Source: a virus
Length of the DNA: 38,082 nucleotides
Virus record (IMG/VR): IMGVR_UViG_3300020220_000148
Location: 1 to 38,082 of that record
Direction: 5' to 3' (one strand)
Shown: positions 2,802-30,458 of the stretch, in pieces
How the letters are laid out: the number at the start of each line of letters is the position of its first letter
How positions within the stretch are numbered: the first letter of the stretch is position 1
Position numbers and translations under genes: made by a program
The notes under the pieces: model-generated
What the model saw: the letters and a program-made list of their open reading frames with translations, nothing else
Database searches by the model: none
What the model was told of the DNA's origin: nothing

Positions 2802-4733
2802 ATGTTAAATGATTCACAAAAAGAAGTTAGTTTAATTGGTAGGGATTTTTCCGCGTTTAGAAAAAATTTAGTAGATTTTGCTAAACAGTATTATCCAAAC
2901 ACTTATAATGATTTTAACGAATCATCTCCTGGAATGATGTTTATGGAAATGGCATCGTATGTTGGTGATGTTCTATCATATTATACGGATGTTCAATTAA
3001 GAGAATCAATTATTACTCAAGTAAAAGAAAATGGAAACTTATTTCAGTTAGCCCAATCGATGGGATATAAACCAAAATTTTATTCACCCGCTACAACAAA
3101 TTTAATTGTTTATCAGTTAGTTCCTGCCATTGGGAATGGTAATAATGTTAGACCTGATTTAGATTATGCCTTAAAAATTAAAGAGGGGATGCAGGTATCA
3201 TCAACTCAAAATCCAAATGTGGTGTTTTCTACAACTAGAAAAATTGATTTTGCATATTCATCATCTTTTGACCCAACTGAAATATCGGTTTATCAAATAA
3301 ACGAAATTACCGATGAGCCTGTTTTTTATTTATTTAAAAAAAGTGTTCCTGTAGTTAGTGGTGAAGATAAAATAGCCACATTTACATTTGGTTCGCCAAA
3401 ACCATATGATAAAATTAAAATTATTGATGATGGTATTATTGATGTTATTAAAATTGTTGATGATGATGGTGATATTTGGACAAAAGTAGATTATTTAGCT
3501 CAAGAAACTGTATTTGAGCAAGTTCCAAATACAACCGATTATACACTTAGTTTAAATCAATATGGGTCGGAAACTCCATATTTATTAAAGCTTAAAAAAG
3601 TACCTAAAAGATATATAACTAGAGTGGAAGAAAATGGTTCTATAGTAGTACAATTTGGGCCGGGAGTATCATCAAATGCAGATGAAGAGTTATTACCAAA
3701 TCCCGGAAATGTTGGTTCTAATTTATATAAAGCAACTGGAAACATAACGCAAAATTTAGACCCATCAAATTTTTTATATACAAAAACATATGGTGCTGCA
3801 CCATCAAATACAACCTTAACTGTAACCGCTAGAGTTGGGCAGGGTGTAATTGATAATGTTGTATCCAAAGATTTAACCACAATTGTAAACATTGAAATTG
3901 AAAATGAAATTACACCAGCAAACACACAACAATTTAATACAATCAGAAATTCGGTTGCGGTTACAAACGAAGAACCCGCATCTGGTGGTAAATCAAATGA
4001 TGATATGGATGAAATTAGAAATAATGCGATGGCATTTTTCGCTGCACAAAGTAGAGCCGTTACTGCTGAAGATTATGTTGTAAGAGCATATGCTATGCCA
4101 CCACAATTTGGTGCAGTAGCAAAAGCATATGTAGCTCCTGATTATCAAATAAGAGCTATTAGCCCGGCCGGAAGCGGTGGTTCATCGGTTGGTTCTCTTC
4201 AAGTTCCAAATCCACTTGCATTAAATTTATATGTTCTTGGTTATGATGGACAGGGTAATATAGCAAATGTGAACCCAGCCACCAAACAAAACCTTAAAAA
4301 TTATATTTCATATCATAGGATGTTGACCGATGCGGTAAATATTAAAAATGCGTATATTATAAACATTGGTATTGATTTTGAAATTATTGTTTTACCAAAC
4401 TATAATTCAAACGAAGTTTTATTAGATTGTATTAATGAATTAAAATTATATTTTAGTAAAGAAAATAGTCAAATAAACGGTCCTATACTATTATCAGATT
4501 TGTATGTTTTATTAGATAGAGTTGATGGAGTTCAAACTGTTATTAGACCAAGCGTAGGTAATTTGGGTGGATTACAAATAGTTAATAAATTTGATGGTAT
4601 ATATTCACCACATGTATATGATATTAATAGAGCAACACGAAATGGTGTTATATATCCAGCAAAAGACCCATCTATTTTTGAGGTTAAATTTCCTGATGTA
4701 GATATTAGAGGTAGAGTTGTTCCGTTATTTTAG
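2802..4733 (+). CDS. 6: Baseplate wedge subunit gp6 (baseplate J-like)
   Basis: The 643-residue product is close to T4 gp6 (660 residues). The N-terminus (FAKQYYPNTYNDFNESSPGM, then GDVLSYYTDVQLRESII and LAQSMGYKPKFYSPATTNL) is the typical gp6 wedge domain. The baseplate-J-like middle contains ITRVEENGSIVVQFGPG and DEIRNNAMAFFAAQSRAVTA (about 405-425). In T4, gp6 dimers form the continuous inner ring of the baseplate and change conformation during sheath contraction. A clear AGGAG lies 7 nt upstream of the ATG. The gene belongs to one run with the gp25 gene and the next tail gene. Confidence 0.9.
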   Translation: MLNDSQKEVSLIGRDFSAFRKNLVDFAKQYYPNTYNDFNESSPGMMFMEMASYVGDVLSYYTDVQLRESIITQVKENGNLFQLAQSMGYKPKFYSPATTNLIVYQLVPAIGNGNNVRPDLDYALKIKEGMQVSSTQNPNVVFSTTRKIDFAYSSSFDPTEISVYQINEITDEPVFYLFKKSVPVVSGEDKIATFTFGSPKPYDKIKIIDDGIIDVIKIVDDDGDIWTKVDYLAQETVFEQVPNTTDYTLSLNQYGSETPYLLKLKKVPKRYITRVEENGSIVVQFGPGVSSNADEELLPNPGNVGSNLYKATGNITQNLDPSNFLYTKTYGAAPSNTTLTVTARVGQGVIDNVVSKDLTTIVNIEIENEITPANTQQFNTIRNSVAVTNEEPASGGKSNDDMDEIRNNAMAFFAAQSRAVTAEDYVVRAYAMPPQFGAVAKAYVAPDYQIRAISPAGSGGSSVGSLQVPNPLALNLYVLGYDGQGNIANVNPATKQNLKNYISYHRMLTDAVNIKNAYIINIGIDFEIIVLPNYNSNEVLLDCINELKLYFSKENSQINGPILLSDLYVLLDRVDGVQTVIRPSVGNLGGLQIVNKFDGIYSPHVYDINRATRNGVIYPAKDPSIFEVKFPDVDIRGRVVPLF

Positions 4734-20396: not shown

Positions 20397-21971
20397 ATGG
20401 GAAATTTAATAAAAGAGTGGGTTAAAGAAATATTAACCGAAGAAATAAAAGATATAGTGGTTGTATATGCAGGAAGGTTTCAACCTTTTCATAAAGGACA
20501 CTATGGAACATACTCACATTTAGTTCAAAAGTTTGGTAAAGATAAGGTTTGGATTGGAACATCCAATAAAAGTGGTGGACCGAAAGACCCATTTAACTTT
20601 TTGGAGAAGAAAAAAATAATGACTACAATGTTTGATATCCCTTCAAATAAAGTAGTTCAAGTAAAAAACCCATATAACCCAACCGAAGTATTAAGTGGAT
20701 TTTCACCCAAAACAACAGCGTTTGTAACTGTGGTAGGAGAAAAGGATGTACAACGATTGGGTGGTAAATATTTCAAAAAGTTTCATAGTGGAGACGGATT
20801 CAAACCTGCTAGTGGGTATGAAGAAAATGGTTATGTTTACGCATCACCAATGCAGGCAAACTCAATAAGTGGAACGGATGTAAGAAAGTGGTTATCAGCG
20901 GGAGATGAATCAAAAAGAAAAGCAGGATTTAAAAAAGCTTATCCAAAATTTAATCCCAAAATATACAACTTAATAACAAAAAAGTTGATAGCAGTAGAAT
21001 CCATAATGGAATCTTTCTTTAAGACATTTAATATAAAAGCATTAACTGAGTCAACACTAAGTGGTGGATATGGGGGAGATGCAGGTGAACCTGACGCAAT
21101 GTATGTAGTTCCTAATAAACGAAGGGTTTTGGGATTAAGTAAGCAAGCACAAAAAAACGATTATTGGTTTGTTAATGGTGGATATGTACAATTAGATTTT
21201 CCAAAAGCAGATGTAATGGTCAAAAAATCCGCAAAAGGTACTGGGGATTTTTACCAATATAGTAGTACTAGAAAAGTATTTACAATGGATGACCTTTTAG
21301 ATATTCCTGAAACCGAAGATTTTGTAACGGCTGATACAGCAACATCACCATTGGATGCAGCACCACCGGATGCACCACTTAATAATACAGTAGATATTAC
21401 AGGAGTAAAGGATGAAGAGTTACAAGAAGCTTATGCAAGATTAGGACACGAAATTGTTGAATGGTCTACCAATACTAAAGTAAAGAGAATTAACGATAGA
21501 CAATTTAGATTATTAGAAAAAATTGGCAGAAAGTTTTCTAAGTTTTTGTTAGAGGGTGGCGCATACGGACACATGAATCACCCATTTGATATGGAATTGG
21601 GTTTAACTTTTGGTGATTTAAAAAATATAATAACAAAAGCCCTAAAAGGTGATTTGAAATTAACAACAGAAAAGTGTATAGCGGGTGATAGTATTATTGA
21701 AACTAAAAATAATGGAAACATACCTATATCGGAGTTTGTGGATAATAAACTTACCGATTTGGTATTATCATTTAATGAAGTAACTGGTAATAATGAATTT
21801 ATGGGTATTATGGCATCTTTTAATAATGATGATACTGATGAGTGGTTAGAAATAGAACTGGAAGATGGTAAAACCATTCAAGTAACGCCAAATCATAGAA
21901 TGTATGTAGAGGGTATAGGGTATGTTCAGGCCAAAGATTTGACCGAAGATATGGAATTGAAAACATTGTAA
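20397..21971 (+). CDS. Two-domain nucleotidyltransferase, N-terminal fragment, fused to N-half of a split intein
   Basis: The product has 524 residues. Residues about 20-200 are an HxGH nucleotidylyltransferase domain: VVYAGRFQPFHKGHYG with His32-x-Gly-His35, and ISGTDVR at 157-163, as in NMN/pantetheine adenylyltransferases. Residues about 340-426 begin a second enzyme domain that ends at TEK, where Lys426 is the expected nucleotide-accepting lysine of a ligase-like KxDG motif. From Cys427 to the end (98 residues) the sequence is an intein N-half: block A CIAGDSIIET and block B VTPNHRMYVEGIGYVQAKDL, then a stop. The rest of the enzyme is encoded from 22759. The substrate is unknown: NAD salvage or an RNA/DNA end reaction are options. 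It also holds ALTES and LLEGG sites fitting the prohead protease pattern. Confidence 0.85.
   Translation: MGNLIKEWVKEILTEEIKDIVVVYAGRFQPFHKGHYGTYSHLVQKFGKDKVWIGTSNKSGGPKDPFNFLEKKKIMTTMFDIPSNKVVQVKNPYNPTEVLSGFSPKTTAFVTVVGEKDVQRLGGKYFKKFHSGDGFKPASGYEENGYVYASPMQANSISGTDVRKWLSAGDESKRKAGFKKAYPKFNPKIYNLITKKLIAVESIMESFFKTFNIKALTESTLSGGYGGDAGEPDAMYVVPNKRRVLGLSKQAQKNDYWFVNGGYVQLDFPKADVMVKKSAKGTGDFYQYSSTRKVFTMDDLLDIPETEDFVTADTATSPLDAAPPDAPLNNTVDITGVKDEELQEAYARLGHEIVEWSTNTKVKRINDRQFRLLEKIGRKFSKFLLEGGAYGHMNHPFDMELGLTFGDLKNIITKALKGDLKLTTEKCIAGDSIIETKNNGNIPISEFVDNKLTDLVLSFNEVTGNNEFMGIMASFNNDDTDEWLEIELEDGKTIQVTPNHRMYVEGIGYVQAKDLTEDMELKTL
21675..21971 (+). other. Split intein N-fragment (blocks A and B)
   Basis: Block A begins with the splicing nucleophile Cys1 (CIAGDSIIET). 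Block B holds the Thr-x-x-His motif (TPNH), which catalyses the first acyl shift. The acidic middle (FNNDDTDEWLEIELEDGKTI) fits the usual charge complementarity with a basic C-fragment. Coding stops at once after KDLTEDMELKTL, the usual break point of natural split inteins. Confidence 0.9.
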
Positions 21972-22008
21972 AAATACACACAACAACCATCGGTTTTTTC
22001 ACAAATCA

Positions 22009-22017
22009 CATATTTAT
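22009..22017 (+). promoter_or_regulatory. NATATTTAT box before the homing endonuclease gene
   Basis: CATATTTATATAAAATAATAC, 17 nt before the ATG at 22035, in the only gap of the cassette. It may give the endonuclease and the intein C-half their own late transcript. Confidence 0.4.
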
Positions 22018-22034
22018 ATAAAATAATACATACT

Positions 22035-22769
22035 ATGGAAGAAGCTTGTAAATATTGTGGTAATAAACTTCAAATTAAAAGTAGTTTGAGTATAAATGGT
22101 CATATAAGAAATTGTGGTAAATTTAAAGAATGGCGTGATGGGTTATTTAATTATGATATGTTATATACTGAATATATAATAAATGGTAAATCTGCGCTAC
22201 AAATTGCTAATGAAAATGGGTGGAGTTCATCTACAATAGTGAACAAACAACTTAGACGATTAAATATACCTGTTAGAAATGTAAAACAATCTCATTATAT
22301 GGATGGGTATAGAGATAGAATTGAAAAAACTAATTTGAAAAAATATGGTGCAATAAACCCATTATCTAAAGGGACAGTAATATTTCACAAAAGAAATAAA
22401 ACTGTTAAAGAAAAATATGGAGTTGATAACATTTTTCAGCACCCAAAAGTTAAAGAAAAAATACGATTTTCTGGAGCATTTAAGTCTTTATTTCCAAATT
22501 ACAATGTAAATGCTATACCAATTATAGAAGAGTATGGTAAGCAATATGGATATAACTTCCAACACGCGGAAAATGGTGGTGAGTATTATGTTGAAGGGCT
22601 TGGTTATTATTTGGATGGGTATGATAAAGAAAAAAACGCTGTAATTGAAATAGATGAATCGCATCATTTTAATAAAGATGGTTCACTTCGAAAAAGAGAT
22701 GTAATACGACAGGAAAAAATAGAAAAGTTATTGGGCTGTAAATTTATAAGGATTAGATATGAAAATTAA
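22035..22769 (+). CDS. EDxHD (Vsr-like) homing endonuclease
   Basis: The product has 244 residues. An N-terminal zinc knuckle (CKYCGNK...HIRNC, residues 5-31) is followed by a helix-turn-helix-like segment (SALQIANENGWSSSTIVNKQ). Two copies of a basic K-KYG element follow (EKTNLKKYGAINPLSK; KTVKEKYGVDNIFQHPKVKE) as in DNA-binding linkers of such enzymes. The C-terminal nuclease core has YYLDGYDKEKNAVIEIDESH, then KRDVIRQEKIEKLLGCKFIR: Glu and Asp of IEID, the His pair and Asp of KRD give the E-D-x-H-D set known from I-Bth0305I. It should cut intein-free alleles near the KTDG codons. Its last 11 nt overlap the intein C-half gene, which suggests coupled translation. Confidence 0.87.
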   Translation: MEEACKYCGNKLQIKSSLSINGHIRNCGKFKEWRDGLFNYDMLYTEYIINGKSALQIANENGWSSSTIVNKQLRRLNIPVRNVKQSHYMDGYRDRIEKTNLKKYGAINPLSKGTVIFHKRNKTVKEKYGVDNIFQHPKVKEKIRFSGAFKSLFPNYNVNAIPIIEEYGKQYGYNFQHAENGGEYYVEGLGYYLDGYDKEKNAVIEIDESHHFNKDGSLRKRDVIRQEKIEKLLGCKFIRIRYEN

Positions 22770-22863
22770 ATCAATAAAACCAATAAACAAAGTTCAGACC
22801 AGATATGACATAAAAGTTGATAATTTTTCATGTTATTATGCAAATGGTATATTAATTCATAAT
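22759..22863 (+). other. Split intein C-fragment (blocks F and G)
   Basis: Thirty-five residues with a strongly basic start (MKIKSIKPINKVQTR), complementing the acidic N-fragment, and the C-terminal IHN followed by Thr. The length equals that of known natural split-intein C-halves (about 35-40 residues). Confidence 0.9.
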
Positions 22864-23943
22864 ACAGATGGACAGGCACTCGCTATTAGTTGGAGAGATG
22901 ATAAGGGATTAATCGCTGCAAGGAACAAGGGACACCTTGCTAACAGTGGTGAAAACGCAATGTCAATCGCTGATGTTGCTTCAAAGTTCGGAGGTAGGGG
23001 TGGACTAACCGATGCTTACAACTTTGCTATGAGGGATTTAGAAACGGCTGTGAAGGGGTTATCAAAAGCACAACGAGATAAGATATTTGCGCAAGGTAAA
23101 AAGTTTATGAACTTAGAAGTTATTTATCCAACATCGGTAAATGTAATACCTTATGGACAGGCTCTTTTAATATTTCATAATACAAATGAATACGATGAAT
23201 CCGGTGTGGCGATTGGGGCCGACCAATCTGATGCAAAGATATTGGCGGGGATGATTAAACAAATCAATCAGGATGTACAAGAAAAGTATAAGATACAAGG
23301 GCCACCAATTACACAATTACCAAAAGATGTAAATTTAGAAAAATTACAACCAAAGTATTTGGGGATGTTAAAAAACTTACAATCTAAATTTGGTTTAAAA
23401 GATAGTGATGGGCCTGCAGAATATCATCAGGCTTGGTGGGGAGATTACATAGATAAAAATTCACCTGAAAAATTAGATAAATCAACAAAGGATGGATTGG
23501 TAAAAAGGTGGGCATTTTTTGATAAAAGTTTTAAATTGGGTACAAATAACATTAAATCTCAAAAGGTATTAGATTGGGCGGTGGGTGTAGATAAAAACGA
23601 CCATCAAAAAATAACAAAAGATAATATTAGACCATTTGAAGATATATTTTTAGGTGTTGGTGCGGAAGTGTTATCGTTGATGAGTTCAGTATTAACAGTA
23701 AACCCGGATGAAGCAACCCGAAGTATAAAGCAAAGATTAGACCAAATCATTAAAGATGTTAAAGCCGGTGGGGATGAAAAAAAGATAAAGAAATTACAAT
23801 TAGAACTTGAAAGAATGGCAGCAATCGGCGGGCCTGATAAAATTGTTCCGAATGAGGGTGTTGTTTTTGTGTATAAGGGTAGGACGCTTAAACTAACTGG
23901 TGCTTTCGCAAGTTTAAATCAGATATTGGGTTTATTCTATTAA
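22759..23943 (+). CDS. C-half of split intein fused to ligase-like nucleotidyltransferase C-terminal fragment
   Basis: The product has 394 residues. Residues 1-35 are the intein C-half: block F (RYDIKVDNFSCYYANGILIHN with the terminal His34-Asn35 needed for cleavage). Thr36 is the +1 nucleophile. The extein continues TDGQALAISWRDDKG, AARNKGHL (Arg55, Lys57), MNLEVIYP (Glu120), NEGVVFVYKG (Glu366) and LKLTG (Lys378). These resemble motifs I (its DG), Ia, III, IV and V of the DNA/RNA-ligase and capping superfamily in order. The motif I lysine is on the other fragment, so activity would need trans-splicing to a 785-residue product. Nearest known family unsure; it may be annotated only as a phage protein of unknown function. 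AAGGATTAG precedes the ATG. Confidence 0.85.
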   Translation: MKIKSIKPINKVQTRYDIKVDNFSCYYANGILIHNTDGQALAISWRDDKGLIAARNKGHLANSGENAMSIADVASKFGGRGGLTDAYNFAMRDLETAVKGLSKAQRDKIFAQGKKFMNLEVIYPTSVNVIPYGQALLIFHNTNEYDESGVAIGADQSDAKILAGMIKQINQDVQEKYKIQGPPITQLPKDVNLEKLQPKYLGMLKNLQSKFGLKDSDGPAEYHQAWWGDYIDKNSPEKLDKSTKDGLVKRWAFFDKSFKLGTNNIKSQKVLDWAVGVDKNDHQKITKDNIRPFEDIFLGVGAEVLSLMSSVLTVNPDEATRSIKQRLDQIIKDVKAGGDEKKIKKLQLELERMAAIGGPDKIVPNEGVVFVYKGRTLKLTGAFASLNQILGLFY

Positions 23944-28871: not shown

Positions 28872-30458
28872 ATGGCTGGTAAATCTTTAAAGGAATTAAT
28901 ATCCGATGAGTATGTAAAGTGTGCAAAAGACCCCGTATACTTTTTTAAAAAATTTTGTTACATACAACACCCACATAGGGGTAAGATATTATTTAACCTA
29001 TACGATTTTCAAGAGGGATTAATTGATAATTTTAAAGAACATCGTTTTAATGTTATCCTTAAATCACGTCAGTTAGGTATATCCACTATTAGTGCTGGAT
29101 ATGCAACTTGGTTAATGTTATTTCATAGAGATAAGAACATACTTGTAATTGCTACCACACAAGATGTAGCAAAAAATCTTGTTACAAAAGTTAGGTTTAT
29201 GTATGATAACTTACCAAGTTGGTTAAAAGTTCCTGCTGCAGAAGATAACAAATTATCATTAAGATTGAAAAATGGTTCGCAAATTAAAGCAGTATCCGCA
29301 ACCGAAACGGCAGGTCGTTCTGAAGCACTTTCATTACTGATTATTGATGAGGCTGCATTTATTAAAGGTATTGAAGAGATATGGTTATCAGCACAATCAA
29401 CGTTATCAACCGGTGGTGGGGCTATCATTCTTTCAACTCCAAATGGTGTAGGTAATTTTTTCCACAAAGTTTGGTTGCAAGGTGAGCAGGGTGATAAATG
29501 GCATCCTACAAGATTACATTGGACAGTTCATCCAGAAAGAAATCAACGATGGAGAGATGAACAAACCCGATTATTGGGTGAAAAGGGTGCTGCACAAGAA
29601 TGCGATACTGATTTTATATCATCGGGTTATACTGTTGTAGATGGTAGTGTATTGGAGTGGTATAAAGAAACTTACATTACCGACCCCGTTGAAAAGCGTG
29701 GTTTTGATGCAAATTATTGGATATGGGATTATCCAAACTATGAAAAGAATTATATTGTTGTAGCTGATGTTGCTAGGGGTGATGGAGCAGACTATTCTGC
29801 TTTTCATGTTATTGATGTAGAACGAATTGAACAGGTGGCAGAGTATAGGGGTAAGATAGAAACAAAACAATATGGGGCGTTTCTAACATCAGTTGCAACG
29901 GAATGGAACAATGCTTTGTTGGTGATTGAAAACGCAAATATTGGGTGGGCAGTTATCCAAGAGGCAATTGACCGTAATTATCAAAACCTTTATTATTCAT
30001 ATAGAGAACTGGGTTATATTGATGAGGATATTCATTTAAGGCGTGGTTGGGATTTAAAACAAAAAGAGGATATGGTACCAGGGTTTTCAATAACACAAAA
30101 AACCCGTCCATTGATTGTATCAAAATTAGATACTTATATGAGAGAGAAATCACCTATAATTCGCTCTAAAAGGTTATTGGATGAATTGTTTGTGTTTATT
30201 TGGAATGGTTCAAGAGCAGAAGCACAAAAGGGTTACAACGATGATTTAGTTATATCATTTTCCACAGGTCTTTGGGTAAGAGATACTGCTCTTAAATTAA
30301 GACAGCAAGGAATGGATTTAACCAGATCTGCATTAAGTCATATTACCAAAGTATCTTCAAACCAACCAGGAGTATTTTCAAGCAGAAATCAAACACAAAA
30401 CCCATACTCAATGAAAGATATTCGTGGTAACGATGTTGACTTGAGTTGGTTATTATAA
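28872..30458 (+). CDS. 17: Terminase large subunit gp17
   Basis: The product has 528 residues (T4 gp17 has 610). The ATPase half has the Walker-A-like SRQLGIST (residues 65-72), Walker B LLIIDEAAF (Asp159, Glu160) and coupling segment IILSTPNGVGNFFHK. The nuclease half has VVADVARGDGADYSAFHVID, LLVIENANIGWAV and YNDDLVISF, where the acidic residues form the RNase-H-like metal site. The enzyme cuts concatemeric DNA and drives it through the portal. No small-terminase gene is seen beside it in this window. The portal gene follows after 19 nt, as expected for the head module. Confidence 0.93.
   Translation: MAGKSLKELISDEYVKCAKDPVYFFKKFCYIQHPHRGKILFNLYDFQEGLIDNFKEHRFNVILKSRQLGISTISAGYATWLMLFHRDKNILVIATTQDVAKNLVTKVRFMYDNLPSWLKVPAAEDNKLSLRLKNGSQIKAVSATETAGRSEALSLLIIDEAAFIKGIEEIWLSAQSTLSTGGGAIILSTPNGVGNFFHKVWLQGEQGDKWHPTRLHWTVHPERNQRWRDEQTRLLGEKGAAQECDTDFISSGYTVVDGSVLEWYKETYITDPVEKRGFDANYWIWDYPNYEKNYIVVADVARGDGADYSAFHVIDVERIEQVAEYRGKIETKQYGAFLTSVATEWNNALLVIENANIGWAVIQEAIDRNYQNLYYSYRELGYIDEDIHLRRGWDLKQKEDMVPGFSITQKTRPLIVSKLDTYMREKSPIIRSKRLLDELFVFIWNGSRAEAQKGYNDDLVISFSTGLWVRDTALKLRQQGMDLTRSALSHITKVSSNQPGVFSSRNQTQNPYSMKDIRGNDVDLSWLL

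Follow-up and report, generated by a model that had tools for sequence, protein, structure and literature searches.

A split intein with an intervening nuclease gene in a phage nucleotidyltransferase and putative RNA-ligase-like gene

Introduction

Fractured genes, reportedly described by Dassa et al. in 2009, are genes broken by split inteins with a free-standing nuclease. The element considered here lies in the virus record IMGVR_UViG_3300020220_000148, whose whole length of 38,082 bases is called the window below and which encodes portal, baseplate and T4-like terminase genes. By its sequence the element is a split intein, and by its layout it is one of the fractured genes: two genes each encode one extein half and one intein half, with a nuclease gene between them. 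As in the fractured genes, the N-terminal intein half (IntN) is acidic and the C-terminal half (IntC) is basic, and the nuclease has a domain compatible with the I-Bth0305I/VSR fold. Unlike them, the host is a nucleotidyltransferase fused to an RNA-ligase-like domain, the alleles form a series that includes decayed and contiguous forms, and the insertion site has a copy in the spacer before the nuclease gene (published cases were compared by layout). To our knowledge, the origin, persistence and reversion of naturally split inteins are not settled.

Other described systems resemble parts of this locus. The phage MIJ3 polB gene has a predicted split intein with an HNH nuclease ORF (open reading frame) between the gene halves, as here, but the host gene and nuclease class are different (PMC6892783). 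The phage split inteins AceL-TerL and GOS-TerL are atypical; an N-fragment of 25 amino acids (aa) is given in PMC11766414, and PMC7090010 has such inteins among its references. The terminase elements found in the present work are phage split inteins as well, which share the nuclease domain of the window element and in many cases carry a site copy; in the counted loci their IntN measures 30-38 aa, their target differs from that of the ligase element, and their copy is mostly direct. The nuclease I-TevI, as described in PMC2988022, binds an operator that is identical to its homing site at 15 of 20 positions, overlaps its late promoter and is bound with affinity equal to that for the homing site; cleavage of this operator is about 100-fold less efficient, and the enzyme reduces the activity of its own promoter. 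The window resembles I-TevI in having a homing-site-like sequence at what appears to be the nuclease's own promoter. The difference is that I-TevI is an experimentally tested GIY-YIG enzyme of a group I intron, whereas the nuclease predicted in the window belongs to a split intein, lying between its halves, and its nuclease domain is of another kind.

Taken as a whole, the locus is best explained as a mobile split intein that would yield a trans-spliced ligase, with a self-limiting homing nuclease that later decays, a reading to which we give a probability of about 75%. The literature searched did not include the original fractured-gene study; within it, no RNA-ligase-like phage gene with a split intein and no operator for split-intein nucleases was found. 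The layout is known, while the host gene, which a first-pass annotation of the window had suggested might be new for such an arrangement, and the site copy look new within that literature.

The Split Intein and Its Intein-Free Alleles

All features are on the plus strand. The upstream ORF (20397-21971, 524 aa) consists of a 426-aa N-extein (20397..21674) and a 98-aa IntN (21675..21968), which contains block A (CIAGDSIIET) and block B (TPNH) and is followed by a stop codon at 21969-21971. The downstream ORF (22759-23943, 394 aa) opens with a 35-aa IntC (22759..22863) ending in ILIHN and continues, with Thr at the +1 position, into a 359-aa C-extein (22864..23943) that begins TDGQ. The hallmarks of an intein are therefore present: an N-block Cys, a TxxH block B and a C-terminal His-Asn followed by Thr. 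The first-pass annotation, made from the letters alone, had placed the end of IntN at 21971 and the start of IntC at 22759 with these same blocks and a 35-residue C-half ending IHN, and the ORF reading agrees. It had also remarked on acidic and basic charge pairing, which is borne out by residue counts (6 K/R against 20 D/E in IntN; 6 K/R against 2 D/E in IntC). Both halves give in-register matches to Pfam Intein_splicing (positions 8-88 of the profile in IntN and 122-155 in IntC), each half being part of the domain and scoring below the gathering score of 35.8 bits (21.6 for IntN and 16.7 for IntC); the contiguous relative L112 passes it at 38.1 bits. Among solved structures, the NrdJ-1 split intein (8ubs) comes closest in sequence to the joined halves (E 3.6e-13). 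A class 3 reading was set aside, given the presence of Cys1.

Rejoining the extein halves gives a 785-aa protein with a Lys-Thr junction, as had been predicted. IMG/VR was scanned with the joined ligase-like part, and the best 80 of 549 relatives were kept. The intein is present in eight of these (L007-L010, L015-L018) and absent in the other 72, so that the intein-free alleles the annotation had proposed to look for do exist. The codons for E-K-T-D-G stand exactly at the uninterrupted junction in 71 of the 72, reading GAAAAAACNGATGG in 53, and the remaining relative (L047) begins downstream of the junction. Four intein-free relatives (L001-L004) are 89-91% identical to the window across both extein halves and are open over exactly 785 codons, equal to the predicted spliced product. 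The two ORFs of the window thus join into a protein that is uninterrupted in these relatives, with the nuclease ORF between them, in keeping with the fractured-gene layout first proposed and opposite to its contrary case, in which relatives would carry two unrelated genes.

Cys1 and TPNH are invariant in 10 of 10 aligned alleles, and the C-terminal HN is retained among the alleles listed. The ratio of nonsynonymous to synonymous substitution rates (dN/dS) for IntN is 0.08-0.19 in all 11 pairs compared, indicating purifying selection. The split layout was found again in many metagenome contigs, several of them near-identical phages. Given this recurrence, the purifying selection on IntN and the intein-free alleles that run uninterrupted across the junction, the split is neither a chance arrangement nor an assembly accident. 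The window pair would very probably splice in trans.

The Host Protein

The N-extein comprises a CTP_transf_like nucleotidyltransferase domain (3.2e-06), a variable middle region and the start of a ligase-like domain, the remainder of which forms the C-extein, from TDGQ through EGVVF and KLTG. Pfam and PDB-profile searches gave no convincing match to the C-extein domain, so the ligase reading depends on a weak fold match and motifs. With a model of the C-terminal domain (predicted local distance difference test, pLDDT, 72), Foldseek returned RNA ligases as nine of the first 11 matches, T4 RNA ligase 1 on top (E 0.07-0.94). On re-alignment the leaders were the tRNA ligase Trl1 (Z 6.2), AsfvLIG (5.9) and T4 Rnl2 (5.8), and the ligase alignments mostly begin at model residues 39-45, which are E-K-T-D-G. 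The junction reads EKTDG, with T-D-G invariant in 22 of 22 alignment rows; it contains K-x-DG, which we take to be the nucleotidyl motif of RNA ligases and covalent nucleotidyltransferases. Two points weigh against the identification: the Foldseek match is weak at E 0.07 or worse, and rRNA methyltransferases reach Z scores of up to 5.8 on the same model, alike to the ligases. The domain is tentatively regarded as RNA-ligase-like. The last codon of the N-extein (21672-21674) would then encode the probable catalytic Lys, and because the E-K|T-D-G junction falls at the start of the ligase-like fold, the split probably parts this Lys from its domain.

Two relatives of the extein (L065, L066) are about 1300-1380 aa long and have PolyA_pol/CCA-type domains between the nucleotidyltransferase and ligase-like parts, L066 with an additional HD domain in the middle region; such fusions would fit a role in RNA repair. 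A second site of the host extein holds an in-frame HNH-like insertion, recognized by eye and roughly 240-260 aa long, in L005 (about 3217-4004) and L006 (about 3265-4001), and similar-looking ends stand directly before GGAYGH in L112, L116 and L117. The insertion may be an intein, an intron or a domain.

The Nuclease between the Halves

The ORF between the halves (22035..22769, 244 aa) had been called a separate nuclease gene, and its match to a PHROG homing endonuclease (8.9e-07) fits that call. It encodes a CxxC N-terminus, a helix-turn-helix-like stretch noted by eye, KYGVDN repeats (DUF7487) and a nuclease-like C-terminal domain. DUF7487 was found in seven of seven nuclease rows (best 1.8e-12), the window's own score being below the family cut-off. 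The protein occurs in 244-aa and 304-aa forms, which alternate among close alleles. A sequence comparison of the nuclease with the PDB found no convincing match. The structural model has a pLDDT of 62 overall and of 75-87, by blocks, over residues 191-240; its C-terminal domain aligns with I-Bth0305I (3r3p) at Z 6.8 (77 residues, root-mean-square deviation 4.7), tied with 4ic1 and 3hrl, and with VSR (1cw0) at Z 6.3. Foldseek relates the model to the I-Bth0305I type at E 0.15 and probability 0.85, a weak match. Against this stand the mitoribosomal proteins, which outrank the nuclease families in alignment of the domain (Z 8.6-10.3) and top the Foldseek matches, all of them weak (E 0.015 or worse). 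The domain is described here as compatible with the I-Bth0305I/VSR fold. In L096 (3551-4267), a nuclease of this family lies between apparent tail-sheath and tail-tube genes, assigned by eye, and no intein was noticed there.

The 3' end of the nuclease gene runs over the start of IntC by 11 nucleotides (nt; 22759..22769). Of 20 open nuclease genes compared, the window's among them, 16 have an overlap of this length; it measures 4, 20, 32 and 32 nt in L132, L199, L117 and L118, respectively. The same design is present in the terminase element of L092.

Split, Decayed and Contiguous Alleles

An exact-pattern scan for the IntC-TDG junction identified 26 contigs besides the window. Twenty of these, several of them near-identical phages, have the split intein with the nuclease gene, which is open in 19 and truncated by the end of the locus in one (L192). 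In two (L094, L095) the intein is split and the nuclease is broken by one in-frame stop; in one (L212) the nuclease is gone save for its upstream element and last codons; and in one (L018) the split persists with no nuclease, 12 nt separating the IntN stop from the IntC ATG. The last two (L112, L116) encode a contiguous intein. The remnants in L212 show that nuclease loss happens.

Re-fusion of split inteins is the somewhat favored origin of the contiguous alleles. Split alleles with a nuclease lie on both sides of the contiguous ones in the intein tree (L117/L132/L199 versus the rest, 98/96), nuclease deletion is seen directly in L212, and the linker of L116, short and A-rich, resembles the nuclease 3' end, which is suggestive only. 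The less favored but quite possible alternative is that L112 and L116 are ancestral and that a nuclease fractured such a gene. Most known inteins are contiguous, an unrooted count (two changes) leaves the direction unsettled, and the trees are not decisive: in an approximately unbiased (AU) test, grouping the contiguous alleles together is rejected with the extein tree (p-AU 0.021) but not with the intein tree (p-AU 0.124), and the latter result, which counts against re-fusion, means that they could be ancestral.

A Copy of the Insertion Site in the Spacer

In the spacers that separate IntN from the nuclease gene, the best-conserved blocks of 12 alleles are CCATCNGTTTTTTC and ATATTTATAT, outside of which the sequence is variable. 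The block CCATCNGTTTTTTC corresponds to the empty insertion site read as its reverse complement, and the same pattern matches the opposite strand at intein-free junctions. In the window it takes the form CCATCGGTTTTTTC (21987..22000), the reverse complement of the E-K|T-D-G codons of the empty site (GAAAAAACNGATGG), and is proposed as a nuclease operator. The copy is present in all 12 alleles of the main set: the 14-base pattern is exact in nine, and L017, L117 and L130 have one change each, that of L130 at a codon wobble position. The N of the pattern corresponds to the wobble position of the Thr codon and is variable in copies and targets alike. Only the exact match at 21987 counts in the window, because matches at two or fewer mismatches are not above chance (three found, 2.6 expected).

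Beside the copy, directly 5' of the nuclease ATG at 22035, is the word ATATTTATA (22010..22018). It has nine matches on the plus strand of the window (934 to 30466) and none on the minus strand. In seven of the nine, an ORF start from a list of 34 follows within 50 nt; such upstream stretches make up 4.5% of the window (binomial p 1.2e-08). TATTTAT occurs in 10 of the 12 ligase spacers. The word is a probable phage promoter element, so that the homing-site-like sequence would adjoin the nuclease promoter (inferred from the word alone), with L199 as an exception.

Spacers were also scored against the site of each family, with a cut-off of 9 chosen after a first look. All 12 ligase spacers score 12-14 for the ligase site, and all stay below 9 for the terminase site. 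Of 28 distinct terminase spacers, taken from elements whose nuclease domain is related, a score of 9 or more for the terminase site was obtained in 19 (12 or more in nine of these) and for the ligase site in one. A direct terminase-site copy matched by at most 2 of 100 shuffled sites is present in 17 of 30 terminase loci (not de-duplicated), and the other 13 are without one. The terminase-site copies are mostly in direct orientation, while the ligase-site copy is inverted. A layout similar in kind to that of I-TevI is seen in two different host genes, ligase-like and terminase. When each allele's own ligase site was compared with 500 shuffles, it beat all of them in six of 13 spacers. Because this comparison fails in the other seven, the case for the site copy rests on conservation and the cross-control between families.

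From sequence alone, the binding core of the nuclease appears to be readable in the spacer copy. By analogy with I-TevI, the nuclease may well bind it beside its own promoter-like word and limit its own expression, a step we hold with less assurance than trans-splicing. Three observations count against it: L199 has an open nuclease gene and no site copy within three mismatches, nine of the 28 terminase spacers are without the terminase site even at the loose cut-off, and in seven of 13 ligase spacers the score of the allele's own site is equaled by one or more of 500 shuffles. The copy was not found within two mismatches in the nuclease-free L018, L112 and L116.

A leftover of nuclease arrival, or a terminator, is a rather unlikely source of the copy. 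It does contain a T run, and a relic could be inherited; the copy is exact in L212 despite the nuclease deletion, and L199 manages without one. Against this, the copy and the promoter-like word are alone in being well conserved across 12 spacers that vary elsewhere, no copy departs from the 14-base pattern by more than one change, copies and targets share the variation at the N position, and terminase elements carry the terminase site in its place, mostly in the other orientation. A terminator reading of the conserved word was dropped once the word proved to match the opposite strand of the empty site.

Divergence and Mobility

From 21993 to 22838 (846 nt), three differences separate the window from L016, whose exteins differ from those of the window by about 10%. 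Synonymous divergence (dS) between them is 0.01 in the nuclease (1/139), 0.11 in IntN, 0.17 in IntC and 0.48 in the C-extein (78/222). A second stretch, of 170 nt and without mismatches (21561-21730), includes the insertion site. IntN dS is below that of the C-extein in eight of 11 pairs, above it in two (L016-L017 and window-L104) and undefined in one. The clearest case is L091-L092, with dS of 0.56 in IntN, 0.54-0.60 across IntN, nuclease and IntC, and 1.54 in the C-extein; L087-L088 has 0.48 in IntN, 0.55 in the nuclease and 1.24 in the C-extein. These patterns suggest movement of the element between phages together with nuclease-centered gene conversion, the nuclease region apparently recombining on its own as well. 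The IntN values of window-L104 and L016-L017, which give no sign of transfer, weigh against movement of the element, as does the IntC of L087-L088 (35 codons), whose dS of 2.47 is above that of the extein and does not fit.

The site copy, the conversion tract and the divergence together make the ORF between the halves a likely homing endonuclease of the empty site. That the nuclease instead moves alone into split or contiguous inteins, the intein having split first and being a passive host, is improbable. The long window-L016 tract stops near the inner edges of the intein and the 244- and 304-aa forms alternate among close alleles, as such movement would predict. The site copy, however, matches the empty extein site, the shorter window-L016 stretch crosses the insertion site, and in L087-L088 and L091-L092 the IntN and nuclease dS are similar and both below that of the C-extein (ordinary recombination could also make such tracts). 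Least probable is that the halves no longer splice and are relics on two separately working proteins, as in a nuclease-split ribonucleotide reductase gene that functions as two peptides (mentioned in PMC10448857), given the purifying selection on IntN, the invariant Cys1 and TPNH, the retained HN, the contiguous alleles with an intact intein and a break that separates the probable catalytic Lys from its domain.

Related Elements in Other Genes

Terminase large-subunit genes are split by inteins with a short IntN (30-38 aa) in L088 (7244-8730), in L092 (5703-6978) and in a set of 36 terminase loci, and the nucleases of these elements are related to the C-terminal domain of the window nuclease. 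Ligase and terminase elements occur together in L088, L089 and L092. The terminase large subunit of the window itself (28872-30458) is intein-free at the site that is split in L088 (QECD then TDF). L119-L129 have inteins at a VDE|CH motif, in a phage gene that looks helicase-like by eye; those of L121, L123 and L124 are contiguous.

A Model for the Element and Its Implications

In the proposed mechanism, the two precursors would meet and the intein halves (98 and 35 aa) would co-fold and splice the exteins in trans to give the 785-aa enzyme. The ligase would be active only after splicing, because the junction separates the probable catalytic Lys from the next residue of the RNA-ligase-like domain. 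The nuclease would recognize the intein-free E-K|T-D-G site and copy the element into it, and would also bind the site copy at its own promoter-like word, lowering its own expression. Once empty sites are exhausted, the nuclease would decay and be lost, leaving a split intein without a nuclease and probably, in some cases, a re-fused contiguous intein. It counts against the model that trans-splicing, homing and repression all three rest on sequence. A broader and doubtful extension is that homing-site copies at the nuclease promoter, with self-repression through them, are widespread among the nucleases of phage split inteins; since the IntC start codon lies within the 3' end of the nuclease gene, the feedback could also set the supply of the C-half, so that one switch would control both mobility and the amount of active ligase.

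The window intein (98 + 35 aa, with Thr at +1) is a candidate split intein for protein engineering. The spacer copy makes the specificity and self-control of the nuclease directly testable. Empty, contiguous, split, decaying and nuclease-free forms occur at one site in related phages, allowing these states to be compared directly.

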